Shown here: piece by piece, positions 42,510 through 54,776 of the stretch
How the letters are laid out: every line of letters starts with the position of its first letter
Numbering within the stretch: position 1 is the first letter of the stretch
Assembly: GCA_027452265.1 (NCBI GenBank)
Contig: DAIDGR010000041.1
Coordinates: forward strand, 62,001-126,000
Source of the DNA: Caulobacteraceae bacterium
Lineage (GTDB): Bacteria > Pseudomonadota > Alphaproteobacteria > Caulobacterales > Caulobacteraceae
Direction: 5' to 3'
Length of the DNA: 64,000 nucleotides
Made by a program: the position numbers and the translations under genes
The notes under the pieces: model-generated
What the model was told of the DNA's origin: nothing
What the model saw: the letters and a program-made list of their open reading frames with translations, nothing else
Database searches by the model: none

Positions 42510-42811
42510 GCGGGCTCAACCTGTTTCGCGGGCGCCGCCGGGAAGTGGCCTGCACGGTCGACGTGTCCTGCACCGGCGCCAGTCTGCACGCCCATGTGGA
42601 GCTGGACGACGCCACCCGCTTCGCGCCCGGCGATCGGGTCCGGGTCCATGGTCCGCCGATCACCGTCGCCTTTGGCGAAGAGCTGCGCCTGAGGCGCACC
42701 GCGACCATCTTCGAGGCCGGCCCGGCGCGCCAGGCCTGGACCCGCCTTCTCGCCCACTTCGAACTCGCCGACCTCTATGAGGTCAGCTTCACCTCCGGGA
42801 GACTGTCATGA
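42506..42811 (+). CDS. Conserved small protein of unknown function (orf101) between puhC and acsF
   Basis: This is 101 aa, with no signal peptide or membrane helix. It is a predicted mostly beta protein with a segment [18 protein letters not shown] and a C-terminal helix-strand [15 protein letters not shown] overlaps at both ends (with puhC and acsF) make it certain to be translated in the same operon. No catalytic motif is visible. Its fixed place beside acsF suggests a role in cyclase function or reaction-centre assembly, but this is inference. Confidence 0.75.
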
Positions 42812-43896
42812 CCGCGGCCCTGATCGAGCGTCCCGTGGGCGAGCCCGTGTCGGCCCCTGCCCTCGACACCACCGAGATGGCGCGCGAGGACACGCTTCTC
42901 AGTCCCCGGTTTTACACCACCGACTTCGCCGCTCTGGACCGGCTCGACGTGTCGCCGGTGCGCAAGGAGTGGGACTCGCTGATGGCGGAAATGGCCAGCG
43001 ACCCGAACCGCAACCATTTCAAGCGCACGGAGTCCTTCGAGGCCGCCCTGTCCGGGCTCGATCCAGAGCTAAAGCGGGAATTCATCGACTTTCTGGTGAG
43101 CTCACTCACGGCCGAGTTCTCCGGCTGCGTGCTCTATGCCGAGATCGTCAAGCGGACCAAGAACCCCGATCTCAAGCAGCTGTTCAAATTCATGGCGCGG
43201 GACGAGTCGCGGCACGCCGGCTTCATCAACGAGTCGCTCAAGGACCTGAATATCGGGGTGGATCTGAGCTTCCTGACCAAGACCAAGAAGTACACCTTCT
43301 TCAAGCCAAAATTCATCTTCTACGCGACCTATCTGTCTGAAAAGATTGGCTACGCGCGCTACATTTCGATCTACAATCAGCTTCAGCGACATCCCGAGCT
43401 GCGCTTCCACCCGATCTTCTCCTGGTTCAAGGACTGGTGCGCCGACGAGTTCCGCCACGGCGACGCCTTTGCGCTTCTGATGCGCGCCCACCCCAAGCTC
43501 CTGAGCGGGGTCAACCGGGCTTGGATCCGGTTTTTCGTCCTCAGCGTCTACGCGACCATGTATGTCCGCGATCATGGGCGCCCGGCGTTTCACAAGGCGC
43601 TGGGCCTGGACCCGACCGCCTATGATTTCCAGGTGTTCCGCATCTGTTCGGAGATCTCCAAGCAGGTCTTCCCGATTACCCTGGACATCGACGATCCGCG
43701 CTTCCGCCAGGGTCTGGACACCCTGGTCGATCTGGCGGGGCGGATCGAGACGGCCAAACGGGGCGGAGGCCTCCTCGGCGGTCTGAAGGCGCTGTTCCTC
43801 AAGGCCCGGGTTGGCGCGACCCTGGCGGGCCTCTATGTCCTGCGTCCCATCCCGCACAGCGCTCCGGCGACCGTGCGGCTCGCGCCGGTCTGGTGA
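42808..43896 (+). CDS. acsF: Aerobic Mg-protoporphyrin IX monomethyl ester cyclase
   Basis: This is 362 aa diiron protein of the AcsF/CHL27 family, forming ring E with O2. The carboxylate-bridged diiron ligands are evident: Glu103 (TAEFSG), Glu133/His136 (DESRH) and Glu214/His217 (DEFRH). The presence of AcsF and absence of the anaerobic radical-SAM BchE in the cluster imply that bacteriochlorophyll synthesis here needs oxygen. It starts in an ATGA overlap with orf101 and ends overlapping the puhE GTG. Confidence 0.97.
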
Positions 43897-44714
43897 GCGA
43901 GTCGGTGGCGCTCCTGGCCATCCTGACCGGCGTTGTCTTCGCCGTGGGCCTTTGGTGGTTCGGCACGGGCGCCATCCTGTGGCTGGATCGTCAGCCGCGC
44001 GTCACCTATGGCTGGAGCCTGCTCTGCGGGCTCATCGTGGCCGGCGTCTCCGTGGCCGGGCTGGTGGTCTCGCGCGACGACGCGACCGTCTTGGGCGCCC
44101 TGACCGCGTTCGCCGCGGCGGTCGGCCTGTGGGGTTGGCACGAACTCTTGTTCCTGACCGGCTTCGTCACCGGGCCGAGACGGACGCCCTGTCCGACCGA
44201 TGCGCGCGGCGGACGGCGCTTCTGGCTCGCCGCCGAGACCCTGATCTATCACGAGCTGGCCCTGGCCGTGACGGTCGTCCTTCTGGCCCTTCTCGATCGC
44301 GGAGCCGCCAATAGCGTCGGCCTCGCGGCCTTTCTGGTCCTGTTTGTCGGTCGCCTGAGCGCCAAGCTGAACCTGTTCCTGGGCGCGCCCTACTTCACCT
44401 CGGCCCTGTTCCCCGACCACCTGCGCTATCTGGCGAGCTATGTGCGCACGGGCCACACCAGCCTGCTCTTCCCCGTCTCCATCGCGCTCGGAGCGGCCTT
44501 TTCGGGCGCCGAAGCCTGGCGGGCCCTGCGTCCGGGCGTGTTCCCCTTCGAGGCGGCCTCGGCCGCCCTGCTCTTCGCCCTCGCCGCCCTGGCGATCCTT
44601 GAGCACCTGTTCATGCTTGCCCCCTTTGCCGACGCCGCGCTTTGGCGGTGGGCCGCGCCCGGTCTCGCCCGGTCGCCGGCGGAGGCGCCCCTTTCACCTG
44701 ACCCGTCGCTGTGA
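43893..44714 (+). CDS. puhE: Photosynthetic complex assembly protein PuhE
   Basis: This is 273 aa, about seven membrane helices, GTG start overlapping the acsF stop. Family blocks include [32 protein letters not shown] and [13 protein letters not shown], with [12 protein letters not shown]. It belongs to the DUF3623 family (PuhE), which modulates bacteriochlorophyll and RC levels in Rhodobacter. Confidence 0.92.
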
Positions 44715-44748
44715 AGACCGCGTCCAAAGACTCACGAAGGATGACCCG

Positions 44749-45969
44749 ATGAACTACGAAACCTTCTTTCAGACGCAGCTCGACGCCCTGCGCCAGGAGG
44801 GCCGCTACCGGGTCTTCGCCGATCTGGAGCGGAAGGTTGGGCAGTTTCCGGCCGCCACGCGGCACCGCGACGCCGACTCCCACGAAGTCACGGTCTGGTG
44901 CTCAAACGACTATCTGGGCATGGGTCAGCATCCCAAGGTGCTGGCGGCCATGCACCTGGCGTTGAACCGCTCGGGCGCCGGGGCCGGAGGGACGCGCAAT
45001 ATCGCCGGAACCAACCACTATCACGTTCTGCTCGAGCGCGAGCTCGCCGACCTCCACCAGAAGGAGGCGGCCCTTCTGTTTACGTCCGGCTATGTCTCCA
45101 ACATGGCGGCGCTCAGCACCTTGGCGAGCCGCCTGCCGGGATGCCTGGTGTTTTCCGACGCCCTCAATCACGCCTCGATGATCGAGGGAATCCGTCACAG
45201 CCGCGCCGAATGCATCGTCTTCGCGCACAATGATGTCGAGGACCTGCGGCGCAAACTGGCCGCCGCGGACCCGGCGCGCCCCAAGCTGATCGCGTTCGAG
45301 AGCGTCTATTCCATGGATGGCGACTTCGCCCCGATCCACGCCATCTGCGACGCGGCGGATGAATTTGGGGCGATGACCTATCTCGACGAGGTGCACGGCG
45401 TCGGCCTGTACGGCCCGCGCGGAGGGGGGCTCGCCGAGGAGGTGGGGGCGATGGACCGCCTGACGGTGATCGAGGGAACCCTGGCCAAGGCCTTTGGGGC
45501 CATGGGCGGCTATGTCGCGGGCTCCAAGGCCCTGTGCGACTTCATCCGCAGCTACGCGTCGGCCTTCATCTTCACCACGGCCCTGGCGCCGAGCCTTGCC
45601 GCCGGCGCCATCGCCGCCATCCAGCACCTCAAGTCCAGCCAGATGGAGCGGGCGCGGCACCAGAACCGGGTCGCGAAGGTGCGCAAGGATCTGAGCGCCA
45701 TCGGCATCCCGCACCTGCCCAATCCGAGCCACATTATCCCGGTGATGGTCGGCGATCCGGTGAAGTGCAAGATGATCAGCGACTGGCTGCTTGAATCGTA
45801 CGGAATCTACATCCAGCCGATCAACTATCCGACCGTGCCCCGGGGGACCGAGCGTCTGCGCATCACGCCCTCGCCGGTGCACTCGGACGCCGACATCGCC
45901 CATCTGGTCAACGCCCTGTCCGAGCTTTGGTCCCACTGCGCCCTCAGCCGCACCTCCCAGGCGGCCTGA
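44749..45969 (+). CDS. hemA: 5-aminolevulinate synthase
   Basis: This is about 406 aa PLP enzyme condensing glycine and succinyl-CoA. The pyridoxal lysine is Lys247 in [14 protein letters not shown], with SNDYLGMG and [15 protein letters not shown] also present. The ATG at 44749 gives the standard start MNYETFFQ. Located 34 bases after puhE, it probably raises ALA supply together with pigment synthesis. Whether another hemA exists elsewhere cannot be told. Confidence 0.96.
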
Positions 45970-46063
45970 TCCGCCTCGACCCGCACGTCGGGCAGACGCC
46001 AGGCCCCTTCGAGGCGGGTCTCGCTTCCGAAGGCGTCCGCTCCGGGGCGCGGGAGGACGCACG

Positions 46064-47119
46064 ATGCGGATAGGCGCGACGCTGGATGAGGCCCTCAGCG
46101 CGGAGGTTGCCGCCCGTCCTTCGCCCCATATGGCCCTTCTCAGGCGCACGTTGCTTGGTCTCGCGGAGGCGGGCGGGGCGTTGTCCTGGCGGGTTGCCGA
46201 GCCGCCGCTCGACGGGCGTCTGGGCGCGTATGCGGGCGGGGTGAACAGCGACGGCGACGCCCAGCGCAAGCTCGACCTGATCGCCGAGACCCTGTTCTGT
46301 GACGCCCTGCGCGACGCTCCCGTGGCGGCCTATCTGTCAGAGGAGACGGAAGGGGCCACACATCTGAACGAGACCGCGCCCCTGGCGGCGGCGATCGATC
46401 CGCTCGACGGATCGTCAGGCATCGACGTCAACGCGCCGATCGGCGCCCTGTTCTCGATCCTGCCCATGACCGAAGCGGCGCGCGGCGACCCGGCCCAGGC
46501 CTTTCGCCAGACCGGACGCGCCCAGCTTGCGGCCGGCATCTTCGTCTTCAGCGCCCAGACCTCCCTGATGCTGTCCTTGGGACGCGGGGTGCAGCTTTAT
46601 GTCTATGACCGCGGCGCGCGCACCTTCAGACTGGTCGAACCGTGTGTCCGGATCCCTGAGGACTATCCCGAATTCGCCATCAACGGCTCCAACCAGCTCA
46701 ACTGGCCCGATCCCGTGCGCGGCTATATCGAGGACTGCCTGAGCGGCGTCGATGGCCCGCGCGGCCGCCATTACAACATGCGCTGGATGGGCTCCCTGGT
46801 GGCGGAGGCCTATCGAATCCTTCAGCGCGGGGGGATCTATCTGTACCCGGCCGATACCCGACCCGGCTTCGAGCGGGGGCGCCTGCGCCTGATCTATGAG
46901 GCCAATCCGGTGGCCTTTCTGTGCGAGCAGGCCGGCGGCGCGGCCACCGACGGCCTCGGCCCGATCCTCGATATCGTCCCGGAGACGCTGCACGAGCGCG
47001 TCCCCCTTGTGTTCGGCTCAGCCGAAAAGGTCGCCCTCGTCGGCCGCTACCACCAGGACATGGCCCGCCCCTCGCCAGACTCGCCGCTGTTCGGCCGTCG
47101 CGGCCTGATGCGCCGCTAG
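46064..47119 (+). CDS. cbbF: Class I fructose-1,6-bisphosphatase
   Basis: This is about 351 aa from an ATG with GGGAGGACG upstream. The class I signature AIDPLDGSSGID (metal/phosphate site) and the substrate loop YNMRWMGSLVAEAYR with GGIYLYP are evident. It hydrolyses fructose-1,6- (and likely sedoheptulose-1,7-) bisphosphate. Position 94 bases after hemA and 14 bases before phosphoribulokinase argues for a Calvin-cycle role rather than simple gluconeogenesis. The symbol is given by context. Confidence 0.9.
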   Translation: MRIGATLDEALSAEVAARPSPHMALLRRTLLGLAEAGGALSWRVAEPPLDGRLGAYAGGVNSDGDAQRKLDLIAETLFCDALRDAPVAAYLSEETEGATHLNETAPLAAAIDPLDGSSGIDVNAPIGALFSILPMTEAARGDPAQAFRQTGRAQLAAGIFVFSAQTSLMLSLGRGVQLYVYDRGARTFRLVEPCVRIPEDYPEFAINGSNQLNWPDPVRGYIEDCLSGVDGPRGRHYNMRWMGSLVAEAYRILQRGGIYLYPADTRPGFERGRLRLIYEANPVAFLCEQAGGAATDGLGPILDIVPETLHERVPLVFGSAEKVALVGRYHQDMARPSPDSPLFGRRGLMRR

Positions 47120-47133
47120 AGGAGACCCGATCG

Positions 47134-48093
47134 ATGTCGGTTCAGCACCCCATCATCGCCATCACGGGTTCATCTGGCGCGGGCACGACCTCGGTGCGCA
47201 AGACCTTCGAGCAGATCTTTCAGCGCGAGCAGATCAAGGCCGTCTATATCGAGGGCGACGCCTTTCACCGCTTCGATCGCGCGCAGATGGCGCACCGGAT
47301 GAGCGAGGCGGCGGCCGCCGGCAATCATCACTTCAGCCATTTCGGCGACTACGCGAACCTCCTGGCCGAGCTTGAAGCGGTGTTCCGTAGCTATGGCGAG
47401 AACGGAACCGGCCGCACCCGCCACTATGTCCACGATCATGCCACGTCCGAACTCTATGGCGCGCCGCCCGGCCATTTCACCGACTGGGAGCCGTTCGACC
47501 CCGATTCCGACGTCCTCTTCTATGAGGGGCTTCATGGGGCCCTGATCACCGATGAGGTCGATCTCGCCCGCCATGTGGACCTGAAGATCGGGGTCGTCCC
47601 GGTGATCAATCTGGAATGGATCCAGAAGCTGCATCGCGACCGAGGGGCGCGGGGCTACAGCGCCGAGGCGGTCACCGATACCATCCTTCGCCGCATGCCC
47701 GACTACATCAATTTCATCTGCCCGCAATTCAGCGAGACAGACATCAACTTTCAGCGCGCGCCGACGGTCGACACCTCCAATCCCTTCATCGCCCGATGGA
47801 TTCCGACGGCGGACGAATCCATCGTCGTGATCCGCTTCAAACGGCCCCAGGGCATCGACTTTTCCTATCTGCTGTCCATGCTGCACGGCAGCTTCATGAG
47901 CCGCGCCAACTCGATCTGCATCCCGGGCGGAAAGATGGAGCTGGCCATGCAACTCATCCTGACGCCGATGATCCTGAAATTGATTGAACGGCGCCGGCGC
48001 CACGGGCCGCTCAGAAGACCAGACCTGAACGCGCCGACCGCGCCTCTGCACGGCGAGACCGGTCAGGGACCCGGCGTCCGAACCGGCGCGTGA
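47134..48093 (+). CDS. cbbP: Phosphoribulokinase
   Basis: This is about 319 aa, bacterial octameric-type PRK. Walker A AITGSSGAGTTSV (about residues 9-21), the IEGDAFHRFDR segment, and FYEGLHGALITD carry the substrate and catalytic positions (Asp42 region). It phosphorylates ribulose-5-phosphate to RuBP, a reaction whose main use is Calvin-cycle CO2 fixation. It is coupled to the FBPase gene (AGAGGAG ribosome site at the junction). No RuBisCO gene lies in the window. Confidence 0.94.
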   Translation: MSVQHPIIAITGSSGAGTTSVRKTFEQIFQREQIKAVYIEGDAFHRFDRAQMAHRMSEAAAAGNHHFSHFGDYANLLAELEAVFRSYGENGTGRTRHYVHDHATSELYGAPPGHFTDWEPFDPDSDVLFYEGLHGALITDEVDLARHVDLKIGVVPVINLEWIQKLHRDRGARGYSAEAVTDTILRRMPDYINFICPQFSETDINFQRAPTVDTSNPFIARWIPTADESIVVIRFKRPQGIDFSYLLSMLHGSFMSRANSICIPGGKMELAMQLILTPMILKLIERRRRHGPLRRPDLNAPTAPLHGETGQGPGVRTGA

Positions 48094-48224: not shown

Positions 48225-50114
48225 ATGAAGCTGAGGGTCCGGTTCCTGCAATTGCCGGTCCGCTTCGAGGCCGGGGCCCTTGCCGCGGAGGTCGCGGCCT
48301 TGCCGAGCGCCGCCTGGCGCCCGCATCCCCAGGGCTATCCCGGCAATGACGCCCTGCCTCTGATCACCACCGGCGGCGACCCTTCGAGCGATGCACGCGA
48401 AGGGGCCATGGGTCCAACCCCGTGGCTGACGGCCTGCCCCTCGCTGATGCAGGTCATGGACGCCCTGGGCGCCACCTGGGGCCGCTCGCGCCTGATGCGC
48501 CTCTCCGGCGACGCCGAGGTCACGCCGCACGTGGACACCGACTATTACTGGCGCGACCACATGCGGGTGCATGTTCCCATCGTCACCTGGCCCACGGTTC
48601 GTTTCCGTTGCGGCGACGAGGAGGTGAACATGGGTCCGGGCGAAGCCTGGATCTTCGACACCTGGAGCCTGCACAGCGTGAAGAACGACGCCACGCGCGC
48701 GCGCATTCACCTGGTGGCGGATACGGTGGGAGGCGGAGGTCTTCTCGACCTCATTGAACAGGCGCAGCCGCCCCGCTCGCGTCCCGTCGGCTGGGCCCCG
48801 CGTCTGCATGTCCTGGCGCCCGGGGCCGCCCCTCCCCGCCTCGCCTATGAGAGCCGCAACGCCCCGGTGGTGATGACCCCCTGGGAGATGCGCGACCATC
48901 TATCTTTTCTGATGAGCGAGGTGGCGGCGCCCGGCCCTCAGGCCGCCGCTGTCGGCCAGGCCCTCAACCGCCTGCGGACCCTCTGGCATGCCCTCTGGGC
49001 GCGATCGGGCGACGCGGAGGAGGCGCGGGCGGAATACCGCGCGATCCTGGACGCGGCGCGAACTCAGGTGCGGCGCCTCGGCGCCGACCAGATCGCCCTG
49101 AAGAACGGCATGGCCCTCGGCCGCTGCCTGACCGCCCTGATCTTCGAGTCCGCCCTGGCCGGCGCCGAACGGGCCATGGACGCCGAAACCCGCGCCGCGC
49201 CTGGCCTTGATCCGCCCTCCAGTCCTGCGCGCCCCGTGCGAAAATCTGAGGGCGTCGACCCCGACTTCGCGGCGCCGATCTTCATCATCAGTCCACCGCG
49301 GTCCGGATCGACCCTCCTGTTCGAGACCCTGGCCCAGGCGCGAGACCTCTTCACCATCGGCAGCGAGGCCCATCGGCTGATGGAGGCCGTCCCAGCCCTC
49401 AGGCCGTCGGCAAGGGACTGGAGCTCCAACCGCCTGACCCCCGCCGACGTGGACGCCGGGTCCACGGCCGAGCTGCGCCGGAGATTTCGCGAGGCCCTGC
49501 GGGACCGCGCCGGCGCCGCGCCCCCGCCAGGCCCCGTACGCCTGCTGGAAAAGACACCGAAGAACGCCCTGCGCGTGTCGTATCTGGCGACCGCCTTCCC
49601 CGAGGCGCGGTTTGTCTGGCTCTGGCGGGACCCGCGTCCGACCCTGGCGAGCATGATGGAGGGCTGGCGCTCGGGCGAGTTCCGCACCTATCCCCACCTG
49701 CCGGGCTGGACCGGGCTCGACTGGTCATTCCTCCTGACCCCGGGATGGCGCGAGCTGATCGGCGCGCCCTTGAACGCGATCGTCGCCGCGCAATGGGCCC
49801 AGACCACCCGGATCGCCCTCGACGATCTTTCGGCCCTGCCGCGGGAGCGATGGCTGGGCCTCGCCTATGACGATCTGGTGCGCGCGCCAGGGCCCACCGT
49901 CACCCGGCTGTGCGAAGCGCTTGGCCTTGTCTGGGATCGCCCCGCGCCCACCGCGCTCGCCCTCTCCCGCTTCACCCTCTCCGCGCCGGCGCCCGACAAG
50001 TGGCGGGCGGAGGAGGACGCCATCATGTCCGTCTGGCCTAAGATTGAAGCCGAGGCCGTACGCGCCGAAGCCGCGCTCAAATCCGCCCGGCCCTTATCCG
50101 CGCCAATCCTCTAG
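48225..50114 (+). CDS. Asp/Asn beta-hydroxylase-like and sulfotransferase two-domain protein
   Basis: This is 629 aa. Residues about 60-175 form an AspH-type double-stranded beta-helix dioxygenase. His102 and Asp104 (TPHVDTDYYW) and His150 (WSLHSVKND) fit the Fe(II) site, and Arg160 fits the 2-oxoglutarate site. Residues about 352-620 are a sulfotransferase domain with the PAPS 5'-phosphate loop IFIISPPRSGSTLLFE (357-363 PPRSGST) and a 3'-phosphate segment PEARFVWLWRDPR. The linker is helical. This suggests coupled hydroxylation and sulfation of one acceptor (peptide or small molecule), but the substrate is unknown. No signal peptide. It overlaps the convergent TPR-sulfotransferase gene by 21 bases. 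Confidence 0.8.
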   Translation: MKLRVRFLQLPVRFEAGALAAEVAALPSAAWRPHPQGYPGNDALPLITTGGDPSSDAREGAMGPTPWLTACPSLMQVMDALGATWGRSRLMRLSGDAEVTPHVDTDYYWRDHMRVHVPIVTWPTVRFRCGDEEVNMGPGEAWIFDTWSLHSVKNDATRARIHLVADTVGGGGLLDLIEQAQPPRSRPVGWAPRLHVLAPGAAPPRLAYESRNAPVVMTPWEMRDHLSFLMSEVAAPGPQAAAVGQALNRLRTLWHALWARSGDAEEARAEYRAILDAARTQVRRLGADQIALKNGMALGRCLTALIFESALAGAERAMDAETRAAPGLDPPSSPARPVRKSEGVDPDFAAPIFIISPPRSGSTLLFETLAQARDLFTIGSEAHRLMEAVPALRPSARDWSSNRLTPADVDAGSTAELRRRFREALRDRAGAAPPPGPVRLLEKTPKNALRVSYLATAFPEARFVWLWRDPRPTLASMMEGWRSGEFRTYPHLPGWTGLDWSFLLTPGWRELIGAPLNAIVAAQWAQTTRIALDDLSALPRERWLGLAYDDLVRAPGPTVTRLCEALGLVWDRPAPTALALSRFTLSAPAPDKWRAEEDAIMSVWPKIEAEAVRAEAALKSARPLSAPIL

Positions 50115-52103
50115 GGCCGGGCCCAGGGCCGCGCGCAAGGGGCCAAGCCAGGCCTCGTAATTCCGCCAATGCTCCAGGGCGTCACGAAACAGGGGGCGGC
50201 GCACCTGTTCGGAGCTGACCGTCCGCACCGCCCGCTCGGTCCGCCAGAAGGTCAGGCAGGTCGCCTCAAAGTCGAGCCCACAGGCGGCCAGAAGGCGCCG
50301 GATCTCGCCCTCGGCGTCCTCGACCAGGTCCTCGTAGATCACCCGATGGACGAAGCCCGGACAGGCGGCGTCGACCGCGCGCATCAGGGCGACATAGTCG
50401 CGGTAATAGGCGCCAATATCGGCGAGATCGTAGGAAAAGCCCTGACCCTGGTTGAAGTGCTGCTTGAAGGCGGCGAATCCCACGGCCATGGGATGGCGTC
50501 GCACATCGATCACCCGGGCCTTGGGCAAGGCCGCGCGGATCAGGGCCAGGTGGCGAAAATTGTTCGGCATCTTGTCGATGAAGCGGGGCCGCTGGGTGCG
50601 CCGATAGATGCGGGTGCGATCCTCGTAGTCACGGCCCAGTTGCGCCAGGGCCTCGGCCGGCAGCCGCGCCAGGACGTCCGGATAGGCCTCCACCGAGCCC
50701 CCGCCCGGTCCCCGGATCAGCCCGTCGGCGAGGATCCCGAGATCGGGTAGCTCCATCACCCCTTCCACCGCGCTGTGGCTGGCGAGGATCTGCTCCACCA
50801 GGGTCGAGCCGGACCGGGGAAGTCCGACGATGAAGATGACCTCGCCCCCGGCGGCGCCCGCCCCGCCAGCGGCCGCGGCGCCCGAGGCGAACCAGGCCGA
50901 AGTCCGCTTCGCGAGACGGGACTCGAGGCCCGGGTCATAGGGCGCCAGAGCCCGGCGCGCGCGGGCGCCCGCAAGGTAATGGGAAAACGACTCCTCGAAC
51001 CGCCGGCGGTCTTCCAGCGCCTTTCCCAGGGCGTAGTGCAGGTGCAGACGGTCTTCCATGCCAAGCGCGGGATCGAGGAGCGCCTGGGACATGGCCTCCA
51101 CCTCGCGATCGGTGAGGGGCGCGACCTTGAGATTGGCCAGGGACCACCAGGCGTCGCCCAGATGCGGCGCCAGGGCGATGGCCTTGCGATAGGCTTCGAC
51201 CGCCTCGCTCTGACGGCCGACCGTGCGCAGGGCGTGTCCGTGATTGAGCCAGACGCGGGGTTGACCCGGAAAGTCGGCCGCCAGTTGCGTGTTGATCTCG
51301 ATGGCGCGGTCGAATTCGCCCAACAGGCCGAACACCGCCGCCGCCAGGTTGCGATAGGGCGGCGCGTTCGGGTCGCGGGCGAGCAGGGCCCGCGCGTGGG
51401 TCAGGGCCTCCTGGGCCTTCTGCTGATGGAACAGCGCGCTGGCGAGACCGAACCGCGCCGCGGGATCGTCCGCCGACAGGGCGAGGCGCCGTTCGAACGC
51501 GTCCGCCGCCTCGGCATATCGCCCCCTGCGCAGGAGCGCCTCGCCAAGGAGCCGCAGCGCCTCCAGATCTTGGGGCGCCGCCAGGAGACGGGCGCGGAGC
51601 AGGGCCTCGGCCCGGACAACATCCCCGCTGTGCAGAGCGTCGGCGGCGGGACCAAGCGCCGGGTCCCTGACGCTGAGCCGATCCGCGCGGGCGAAGGCCG
51701 CCTCCGCTTCGCCCGGATTTCCGGCCTTGAACAGGGCCTCGCCCAGCGCCTTCCAGGCTTCGACAAAGTCGGACCGGGCCGCCGTGGCCGCCCTCAGCGC
51801 GGAGATCGCGTCAGACGTCTCACCCCTCAGCTCCAGGGTCAGGCCGAGCTCATATTGCGTCTGAGCCGCCTTGGGAAAGGCCGCCGCCAGCGGCCGAAGC
51901 AAAGCCAGGGCTTGCGCGGTCTCGCCCAGACGCCGGTGAGCCGAAGCCGCAATCAGGCCCGCGCGCGGGTCGTGCGGCGCCATACGCAGGATCGCCCGCG
52001 CCGCGGCCAGGGCCGCACGGGGATCGGCGGGCAGAAGGGCCGAGGCCTGGTTGAGGGCCTGCGACATCGCCTCAGGGGAGGGCGGCGGGGAGACCGGGAC
52101 CAT
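50094..52103 (-). CDS. TPR-repeat sulfotransferase
   Basis: This is 669 aa. Residues about 10-390 contain roughly nine tetratricopeptide repeats (for example PRVWLNHGHALRTVGRQSEA and its neighbours). Residues about 425-665 are a sulfotransferase domain with IFIVGLPRSGSTLVEQIL as PAPS 5' loop and LPKARVIDVRRHPMAVGFA as the 3' element. The architecture is common in alphaproteobacteria and distantly resembles tyrosylprotein sulfotransferase. The acceptor is unknown. No signal peptide is visible. It lies downstream of the TonB receptor but behind its terminator. Confidence 0.85.
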   Translation of the reverse strand: MVPVSPPPSPEAMSQALNQASALLPADPRAALAAARAILRMAPHDPRAGLIAASAHRRLGETAQALALLRPLAAAFPKAAQTQYELGLTLELRGETSDAISALRAATAARSDFVEAWKALGEALFKAGNPGEAEAAFARADRLSVRDPALGPAADALHSGDVVRAEALLRARLLAAPQDLEALRLLGEALLRRGRYAEAADAFERRLALSADDPAARFGLASALFHQQKAQEALTHARALLARDPNAPPYRNLAAAVFGLLGEFDRAIEINTQLAADFPGQPRVWLNHGHALRTVGRQSEAVEAYRKAIALAPHLGDAWWSLANLKVAPLTDREVEAMSQALLDPALGMEDRLHLHYALGKALEDRRRFEESFSHYLAGARARRALAPYDPGLESRLAKRTSAWFASGAAAAGGAGAAGGEVIFIVGLPRSGSTLVEQILASHSAVEGVMELPDLGILADGLIRGPGGGSVEAYPDVLARLPAEALAQLGRDYEDRTRIYRRTQRPRFIDKMPNNFRHLALIRAALPKARVIDVRRHPMAVGFAAFKQHFNQGQGFSYDLADIGAYYRDYVALMRAVDAACPGFVHRVIYEDLVEDAEGEIRRLLAACGLDFEATCLTFWRTERAVRTVSSEQVRRPLFRDALEHWRNYEAWLGPLRAALGPALEDWRG

Positions 52104-52214: not shown

Positions 52215-54776
52215 TCAGAAGCTCACCGTCACGCGGCCATAATAGTAGCCGCCATTGGGGTTCCATGCGGAGCCGATCGGCACATTAAAGACAAGAGCTC
52301 CATCCACCGGTCGGCCATTGACGATGGGAACCGTCGGCGGCTGCGTGTTGAGCAGATTGTTGGCGCCGATATCGATCTTCATCCATGAGGTGATTTTGTA
52401 GCCGATATCGAGGTCGACGAGCAGGACTGTGGGTGTCGACAAGAACACCGGATTCGCGGTCGCCGTATATTCACCCGAGGCGCCCCACACGGTGCCGCGG
52501 AGGTTCACCGACCACTTGTCCTTGGTCCAGTAGGCCTGAAGGATCAGCTTGTCCCGCGGCGTACCCGTGGTGAGGGCGCTGGCCGCCTGTTGGCTCTGCT
52601 CAGCGACCTGACCAAACGGAACGTTCTGATCGATCCCCGGCAGGTTGTTCAGCTGGGTGATGTGGGTCTTGTTCCAGTTGAAGCCCGCCGACCAGTCCAC
52701 ATGTCCGGCGTCGCCGAAGTCGGTCGAATAGTTGGCTGTGATCTCCGCCCCATTGGTCACGGTGTTGGCGCTGTTGGTGAACAGCGAGATGCCCGTGTAG
52801 CTGAGACCCGAATCCAGGGTGACGCCTCGGGCGGCGATGGCGTTCAGCACCGCCTGGGAGATGACTGACGCGCTGCCGGCTGAACAGCAGGAGCCGTAGA
52901 TGAACCCGGTGGTCAGGATCCGGTCGCGAAGGATGATGTGATAGAGATCGGCCGTGATCTCCAAGTTCTCCGCCGGATGCATGACAAAGCCGACGCTGTA
53001 GTTGTGCGAGAGCTCCGGCTTGAGCGGACCGAATCCGGCGACGGCGGCCGCCGCGGAGTTCGGAGGCAGTTGAACCTCCGCCGAGGTCGGCGAGACGTTG
53101 GTGCCTGAATAGTATTCTTCCGCCAGGGTCGGGGCGCGGAAGCCGGTGCTGATCGTCGTCCGCATGGCGAATTGGGGCGTGAAATCGTAGCGCGCCGTGA
53201 CCTTGCCGATCTCGGTGTCGCCGAAGTCGCTGTAGTGTTCGAACCGGCCCGCGAGGTCGACATGAAGATGCTTGATCGGATCCACGGCGAAGTCGACATA
53301 GGCGCCGAGATTGGTGCGCGAGTAATTTCCCTGATCGAGGGGCGTGTAGCCGTCAAAAGACTGGGCGCCTGCGCCATAATAAGAGGCCGGCTCCCCGGCG
53401 CCGATCGAATAGGTGTCGCGACGCGTTTCAAGGCCGAATGCGACGTTGAGCGGTGTCGCCAAGCCTAGATTGAAGTTGCGATTGAAGTCGAAATTGTTCG
53501 TCCACTCTGTGGCGTTGAACTGGCCATTGTAGAAAGTCTGCTCAGCCGTGAGCGGGGTTGACGACTGGGCCTGGAGCACCGGGAACAACTGTGCATTGGC
53601 CGATCCCGCCACGTAGACGCTGGTGCGATTGCCGCCATAGGTGGTCGAGAAATCCCAGTTCCAGCCCGCAAGATCGCCGCGCAGGCCGGCAGTCACCGAA
53701 TAGTCGGTTTCGTCGTACTTTTCGCGCGGGGAGAAGCCGAAGGGCAACGGATAGACCGTCTGCCCGTTGGATGTCATGCCCGACACCTTGCTCGGCAGGC
53801 GATAGTTCTCGTAGTGCTGCGATTCCTGATATCCGAATGTGGCGAAGGTGTAGAATTCAACATTCGGCGTGATCTGGTAACCTGCATTCACCAGGGCGTT
53901 ATATATGTTGTACTGGGGATCGCCATTGAGGCGGTTCATATAGGGAAAGAGCGGGTTTCCCCCGGCATTGGAGTTGGGGAAGGACAGACCGGGCAGAAGC
54001 TGTCCGTTCTGGTTGGTCACCCGCCGATCGCCGATGCCCAGGGTGCTGTAGTCGTGATAGCGCTCCTCCAACGTGACGTTGACGAAGCCCTTATCCCCCA
54101 GATTGAACCCGTGGTTGAGCGAGATGTCAGCGGTATCGCCCTGACCGCTGTCATACTGGCCGCCGGTCACATCCAGTGTCCCGCCGCTCGCGCCCTTCTT
54201 GAGGATGATGTTCACGACCCCGGCGATGGCGTCGGTTCCGTACTGCGCCGCCGCGCCGTCGGTCAGCACTTCGACGTGGTCGATGGCGTCGAGCGGAATG
54301 AATGAAAGGTCGGTCGTGGCTGACCCCGAATAGGGACTTCCACCATCCACAGCGAGGTTCGAGGTCGGGTGGCGACGCTTGCCGTCGACCAGCACCAGCG
54401 TATCGTTGGGGCTCAGGCCACGAAGCGCGGCCAGGATCTGGACGCCCGCGGCGTCGCCGCCCTGGGTGTCGATATTCAGGGAAGGAACCGCGACGGTTAG
54501 GGAACTGGCGAGGTCTGGCGTCCCGGTGCGCAGGAGTTCGCCATGCCCTACCAGTTCGATCGGCGCGGCGCTGTCCGCCGCCTTGATGCCGGTTTCGCGG
54601 GTGCCGGTGACGATGACCTCCTCGACGGTGGACGTGGAGGCCGTCGAGGCCGTCGCGCTTGCGGCGGCGTCTGCGGCGGCGTGAGCGGCGCCGGTGGACG
54701 CCAGAAGAGCGAGCACGCTGGCGCCCGCGAAAAGCCGTGTCATTCCCCTTGATCTCCTTATGGTTTCGTTACGCAC
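52215..54776 (-). CDS. TonB-dependent outer-membrane receptor
   Basis: This is 853 aa. Signal peptide about residues 1-33, a TonB-box-like STVEEVIVTGTR (about 50-61), plug domain with the LVLVDGKRRHPTSNLAVDG and DGAAAQYGTDAIAGVVNIIL segments, then a 22-strand barrel ending in an aromatic residue (GRVTVSF). The plug resembles the large oligosaccharide/unknown-ligand receptor group of Caulobacterales and sphingomonads. The ligand cannot be read. It follows the exported RidA-like gene by 86 bases on the same strand and ends at a strong terminator. Codon use is somewhat less GC-extreme, with more Asn/Tyr, as usual for barrels. Confidence 0.93.
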   Translation of the reverse strand: MRNETIRRSRGMTRLFAGASVLALLASTGAAHAAADAAASATASTASTSTVEEVIVTGTRETGIKAADSAAPIELVGHGELLRTGTPDLASSLTVAVPSLNIDTQGGDAAGVQILAALRGLSPNDTLVLVDGKRRHPTSNLAVDGGSPYSGSATTDLSFIPLDAIDHVEVLTDGAAAQYGTDAIAGVVNIILKKGASGGTLDVTGGQYDSGQGDTADISLNHGFNLGDKGFVNVTLEERYHDYSTLGIGDRRVTNQNGQLLPGLSFPNSNAGGNPLFPYMNRLNGDPQYNIYNALVNAGYQITPNVEFYTFATFGYQESQHYENYRLPSKVSGMTSNGQTVYPLPFGFSPREKYDETDYSVTAGLRGDLAGWNWDFSTTYGGNRTSVYVAGSANAQLFPVLQAQSSTPLTAEQTFYNGQFNATEWTNNFDFNRNFNLGLATPLNVAFGLETRRDTYSIGAGEPASYYGAGAQSFDGYTPLDQGNYSRTNLGAYVDFAVDPIKHLHVDLAGRFEHYSDFGDTEIGKVTARYDFTPQFAMRTTISTGFRAPTLAEEYYSGTNVSPTSAEVQLPPNSAAAAVAGFGPLKPELSHNYSVGFVMHPAENLEITADLYHIILRDRILTTGFIYGSCCSAGSASVISQAVLNAIAARGVTLDSGLSYTGISLFTNSANTVTNGAEITANYSTDFGDAGHVDWSAGFNWNKTHITQLNNLPGIDQNVPFGQVAEQSQQAASALTTGTPRDKLILQAYWTKDKWSVNLRGTVWGASGEYTATANPVFLSTPTVLLVDLDIGYKITSWMKIDIGANNLLNTQPPTVPIVNGRPVDGALVFNVPIGSAWNPNGGYYYGRVTVSF

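Follow-up and report, generated by a model that had tools for sequence, protein, structure and literature searches.

The sulfotransferase domain of CurM acts on a beta-hydroxyacyl chain. Sulfotransferases generally depend on an Arg or Lys of their 5' motif, on a base that is either Glu or His, and on a Ser of their 3' motif (PMC6637879, PMC9372746). Human AspH holds its iron with an HXG...H pair (PMC12816917). The nearest published pairing of a hydroxylase with sulfotransferases is hinted at by a cluster table from Pontixanthobacter, in which an aspartyl beta-hydroxylase and sulfotransferases appear under consecutive cluster numbers along with lasso-peptide genes (PMC10040529).

Here, the two kinds of domain are encoded by one gene of a Caulobacteraceae bacterium. 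The window is the whole stretch of 64,000 nucleotides that was analysed (GenBank assembly GCA_027452265.1, contig DAIDGR010000041.1, positions 62,001 to 126,000 of the forward strand). Both domains belong to known families; the fusion and the receptor operon of its relatives are without description in the papers searched for the pairing, the domains, and the operon, most of them papers available without subscription.

A Single Gene with Two Domains

The gene runs from an ATG at 48225 to a stop at 50114 on the forward strand as a single intact open frame of 629 codons:

48225..50114, + strand: hydroxylase-sulfotransferase fusion gene, 629 aa, no apparent signal peptide (ORF, Pfam, homologues)
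48225..48779, + strand: domain 1, residues 1-185, Fe(II)/2-oxoglutarate hydroxylase, double-stranded beta-helix, PF05118 (Pfam, AlphaFold model, structural matches)
48780..49160, + strand: middle helical region, residues 186-312 (model; retained in unfused orthologues)
49161..49256, + strand: linker, residues 313-344, with 317-342 predicted disordered (pLDDT <50; dN/dS 0.39-1.05)
49257..50072, + strand: domain 2, residues 345-616, PAPS-dependent sulfotransferase, PF13469, TPST-like fold (Pfam; 5wrj Z 17.8, 4gbm Z 16.4)

The original prediction was that one polypeptide carries a hydroxylase-like dioxygenase and a sulfotransferase. The single frame, the Pfam matches, and homologues with the same domain order bear this out, and H102, D104, H150, R160, and PPRSGST (P357-T363) are at the positions it had given. 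No signal peptide was recognised when the N-terminus was judged by eye.

Could the frame be an artefact? Two-domain homologues in the same order are found in related genomes at 76, 51, 45, and 40% identity. A chance ORF or antisense artefact is ruled out because the domain order recurs in homologues at 38-76% identity, and by the dN/dS ratios. Compared with three homologues, both domains are under purifying selection (0.09-0.14 in the hydroxylase and 0.20-0.29 in the sulfotransferase domain), while the linker is weakly constrained (0.39-1.05). A fusion created by assembly or annotation is likewise rejected, because stop-free fused frames occur in dozens of independent assemblies, isolates among them. 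In an alignment of 69 fusions at 38-76% identity, all 69 are identical at H102, D104, H150, R160, R359, G361, S362, E381, H383, E442, K443, R468, and S476.

An AlphaFold2 model built from the 69-sequence alignment has a mean pLDDT of 91.9 and a pTM of 0.57, and replaces a run on five sequences that gave a pLDDT of 70. It consists of two well-predicted bodies whose relative orientation is not fixed, which counts against joint action in that channelling is not supported. Structural matches barely cover the middle helices, for which no new fold is claimed.

Directly before the fusion (42808-48093) lie acsF (Mg-protoporphyrin IX monomethyl ester oxidative cyclase), a 5-aminolevulinate-synthase-like gene named by its sequence, fructose-bisphosphatase, and phosphoribulokinase; photosynthesis and Calvin-cycle genes are thus present in a Caulobacteraceae genome.

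The Hydroxylase Domain

A profile search, proposed with the original prediction, finds Asp_Arg_Hydrox (PF05118) at residues 69-167 (E 2.8e-14, 53.7 bits against a cut-off of 22.6). The predicted site is made up of:

48528..48536, + strand: H102-x-D104, predicted iron ligands (invariant in 69/69; aligned with HRD of L-proline cis-4-hydroxylase)
48672..48704, + strand: H150, predicted third iron ligand, to R160, predicted 2-oxoglutarate carboxylate anchor (invariant in 69/69)

In the model, the HXD...H...R residues are placed on strands of the double-stranded beta-helix, and this helix superposes on solved HXD...H enzymes at 2.2-2.9 A. The original prediction thus withstood both of the outcomes named as refuting it, a failed profile search and metal-site residues modelled apart. 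The closest structures to residues 2-213 are 7v4m (Z 15.8), 4p7x (Z 15.5), 1e5r (Z 14.9), and human AspH (5jqy, Z 14.2). The features expected of a proline hydroxylase, an HXD...H triad and an Arg for 2-oxoglutarate in a double-stranded beta-helix, are all found in sequence and model.

Is domain 1 then like an Asp/Asn hydroxylase, as first described? The description stands as far as the Pfam family goes, but the metal site is the HXD...H of proline hydroxylases and not the HXG...H of human AspH. AspH proper was rejected on the metal site, since HXD...H is found in 69/69 fusions and a TPR-AspH paralogue in the window's own genome has HTG at this position. A TPR region N-terminal to the oxygenase domain is an AspH trait; no TPR family was matched in the fusion by Pfam, and in the model the oxygenase domain starts at residue 1. 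Judged by its sequence, domain 1 is an oxygenase of family PF05118 whose metal site is of the proline-hydroxylase type.

The Sulfotransferase Domain

Domain 2 matches PF13469 (Sulfotransfer_3) at residues 351-571 (E 1.7e-28, 100.8 bits against a cut-off of 27). This match, together with the invariant site residues, agrees with the PAPS-binding domain predicted from PPRSGST:

49293..49313, + strand: 5'-phosphosulfate loop PPRSGST, residues 357-363 (R359, G361, S362 invariant)
49365..49373, + strand: E381-x-H383, candidate catalytic base (invariant; E381 aligned with the second Glu of the TPST 'GEET')
49626..49652, + strand: R468...S476, predicted 3'-phosphate binding segment (invariant)

The residue scheme of PAPS-dependent sulfotransferases is thus present in the 69 fusions, with R359, E381/H383, and S476 all invariant; alignment with the TPST Glu points to E381 as the probable base. 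Structural matches of residues 344-616 are led by TPST1 (Z 17.8) and TPST2 (Z 17.4), followed by CurM (Z 16.4). An APS kinase, which makes PAPS, is encoded in the window's genome.

Distribution of the Fusion

How widespread is the fusion? A survey of genomes had been suggested with the original prediction, which called the chemistry little described. The fusion recurs at at least 80 loci of public genomes, where the best 80 of 459 confirmed relatives were examined, mostly in Caulobacterales and Xanthomonadales. Additional fusions are found on a plasmid of Diaphorobacter and one of Asticcacaulis. In an even draw of the class it is sparse, occurring in 3 of 385 genomes. The epithet holds for the papers searched, but the fusion itself is widespread and not rare. 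Database records label the gene merely 'sulfotransferase'.

TonB-Dependent Receptors and TPR-Sulfotransferases

In the window, the fusion is followed by two genes on the opposite strand:

50094..52103, - strand: TPR-sulfotransferase, 669 aa, convergent with the fusion, 21-base overlap (PF13469 133.4 bits and TPR repeats; same neighbour in related loci)
52215..54776, - strand: TonB-dependent receptor, 853 aa, 111 bases upstream of the TPR-sulfotransferase on the same strand (PF00593 and PF07715; homologues usually followed by a TPR-sulfotransferase)

In Caulobacteraceae, the fusion often adjoins TonB-dependent receptors and TPR-sulfotransferases. It stands beside a receptor of the window's subfamily at L035-L040, L177, L178, L181, and L182, most of which also have a TPR-sulfotransferase, and a receptor lies within the fetched flanks of 21 of the 81 public-set loci. 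Xanthomonadales fusions are mostly found beside thiC or other genes with no receptor near; neighbour cluster c1, which we take from its sequence to be ThiC, is among the three genes on either side of 22 of 82 fusions.

Strict co-dependence of the fusion and the window's receptor is not supported: of 298 Caulobacteraceae genomes, 130 have receptors of that subfamily or related ones, and many of these lack the fusion. The receptor's closer partner is the TPR-sulfotransferase. Among receptors from other genomes that are of the window's subfamily and at least 52% identical, it is the direct neighbour in 11 of 13 judgeable loci; it is absent beside three receptors at 46-48% identity and beside the G005 receptor. 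In the closest relative, G005, fusion and receptor are on different contigs. Adjacency to receptors is partly expected by chance, TonB receptors being abundant in Caulobacteraceae. These two points, and the lack of a nearby receptor in most Xanthomonadales, weigh against the function proposed below.

Receptors beside the fusion would also fit a role in tailoring a natural product, in which a secreted peptide or siderophore-like metabolite is hydroxylated and sulfated and then re-imported by the adjoining receptor. The top single-domain matches include enzymes whose substrates are free amino acids or a nucleoside antibiotic (7v4m, 4p7x, 1e5r) as well as the curacin-biosynthesis sulfotransferase (4gbm), and the Pontixanthobacter lasso-peptide gene list includes a hydroxylase and sulfotransferases (PMC10040529). 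However, among the annotated neighbours in the window, small precursor genes aside, there is neither an NRPS, a PKS, nor a lasso cyclase, nor any other gene that would make a scaffold, and the TPR-sulfotransferases suggest recognition between proteins. We regard this role as unlikely, though a reasonable minority view.

Other neighbours vary. Surface beta-helix or sorting-signal proteins were considered as a general partner and rejected, as they are seen in single loci only: in Diaphorobacter HDW4B (L114 7380-12987) the fusion is flanked on one side by a divergent IPTL-CTERM protein and on the other by a TIGR03032 (DUF4915) gene, and in G137 (L119 10235-14596) the gene facing it encodes a 1453-aa right-handed beta-helix protein. 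In one Xanthomonadaceae MAG (L104 5347-9570), a 1407-aa SpvB/TcdB-middle-domain protein adjoins the fusion. In Dokdonella and a relative (L051, L073, L078, L102), a small 218-aa hydroxylase of PF05118 comes after the fusion; at L051 and L078 a 231-aa protein, which falls in with the ST2 profile seeds, follows as well. The window's genome has a second cassette (L121, G000:C56:3000-21800), which holds the TPR-AspH with the HTG site, a PKHD-type 2OG oxygenase, TPR-sulfotransferases, one frame of which carries two sulfotransferase domains, and two TonB receptors.

Fused and Unfused Forms in a Five-Gene Operon

Other Caulobacteraceae have a recurring gene order: a TonB receptor (TIGR01782), a Sulfotransfer_2 protein of ~213 aa, a small PF05118 hydroxylase of ~210 aa, a TPR-sulfotransferase of ~640 aa, and a last slot. 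The last slot is filled either by a hydroxylase with the middle region (~320 aa; L117, L143-L159, and L162, with L144 cut by a contig end) or by the hydroxylase-sulfotransferase fusion (~600 aa; L115, L163, L164, L174, and L175). Of 24 TIGR01782-type operon loci examined, 23 have the Sulfotransfer_2 protein and small hydroxylase next to the TPR-sulfotransferase and the hydroxylase or fusion, and nearly all have a profile-matching receptor directly upstream. TIGR03364 and phosphonate-hydrolase-like (phosphonoacetaldehyde-hydrolase) genes adjoin the operon and are kept in 12-15 of the 24.

On a tree of the hydroxylase part, seven switches between the fused and unfused states are required, of which four are forced by well supported branches, and the tree fits gain or loss alike. 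The sulfotransferase domain is not needed for the hydroxylase, because many orthologues in an otherwise identical operon lack it. This counts against coupling, which is dispensable there; those operons encode other sulfotransferases instead.

Are the domains joined for expression only, each with its own substrate and with no chemical meaning to the fusion? They part and rejoin in evolution, the linker is disordered and weakly constrained, and at L176 the two domains are adjacent separate frames, where the frame break could also mark a pseudogene. Against this, whether fused or not, the forms remain within operons that abound in these two chemistries; this speaks for a shared pathway, and we hold a tie for expression alone to be quite improbable.

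Proposed Function

What might the fusion do? Both activities are very probably real, because both sites are conserved, and with two intact, selected catalytic domains the protein is very likely to be a bifunctional enzyme. Where the domains are not fused, both chemistries recur side by side as separate genes, which suggests one pathway for both, and we infer a common substrate. PAPS and 2-oxoglutarate are cytosolic. Three things favour a polypeptide substrate handled there: the nearby receptors, the TPR-sulfotransferases, and a modelled sulfotransferase fold nearest to that of the protein-sulfating TPST1/2.

We give about an even chance to the proposal that the fusion is a cytosolic bifunctional tailoring enzyme with both domains acting on one substrate. 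By chemistry of the Pro/Asp/Asn type, the hydroxylase domain would add a hydroxyl to a side chain, either of a peptide or of an exported protein that is still unfolded. Before export, the sulfotransferase domain would sulfate this hydroxyl or a different one on that molecule. The Caulobacterales substrate would most likely be tied to the adjoining receptor system, as the receptor itself, a partner, or a ligand.

A stricter version, which is that of the original prediction, holds that the hydroxyl made by domain 1 is the very group sulfated by domain 2. A side-chain O-sulfate on hydroxyproline or hydroxyaspartate would be an example. A sulfotransferase requires a hydroxyl and a hydroxylase supplies one, the fusion has been kept across two classes with both sites intact, and unfused operons still pair hydroxylases with sulfotransferases. 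Yet the fold is closest to tyrosine-sulfating enzymes, for which no prior hydroxylation is needed, and the sulfotransferase domain has been repeatedly lost or gained. Chemistry of the hydroxylate-then-sulfate kind is plausible and unproven, and we consider the strict version possible but somewhat doubtful.

More speculatively, Caulobacteraceae and their relatives may have a dedicated system, working in the cytosol, for the paired hydroxylation and O-sulfation of TonB-dependent receptors or of other surface proteins bound for export, with the fusion as its condensed form; we think this distinctly unlikely as a whole. If both activities of the tailoring enzyme share a substrate, a single soluble enzyme would add hydroxyl and sulfate, which would be of interest to peptide and protein engineers. 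The operon, whose last slot holds either a fused or an unfused version, is a natural experiment, and in the cultured genera Asticcacaulis, Rhodanobacter, and Pseudoxanthomonas, sulfated or hydroxylated outer-membrane proteins can be sought directly.

Comparison with Known Systems

Domain 1 shares its beta-helix fold and HXD...H...R site with L-proline cis-4-hydroxylase (4p7w/4p7x) and proline 3-hydroxylase (1e5r). These are stand-alone enzymes of free amino acids, without a sulfotransferase domain, and are ~22% identical over the aligned part. Its top structural match, the nucleoside-antibiotic non-heme hydroxylase 7v4m (2.2 A over 154 residues), is also stand-alone and 23% identical. AspH, both human and the bacterial TPR-AspH of the window's genome, has the PF05118 family and fold in common with the fusion, but differs in its HXG...H pair and TPR region.

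Domain 2 has the fold and the Arg, catalytic base, and Ser positions of TPST1/2 and bacterial RaxST (general scheme, PMC6637879). In contrast to these, from which it differs at 18-20% identity, the fusion protein is predicted to be cytosolic and is joined to a hydroxylase. Among the fusion's annotated neighbours, small ORFs left aside, no precursor peptide or type I secretion genes of the RaxST-RaxX type are named. The best PDB sequence match of domain 2 is the CurM sulfotransferase domain (4gbm), which, unlike the fusion, is part of a polyketide synthase.
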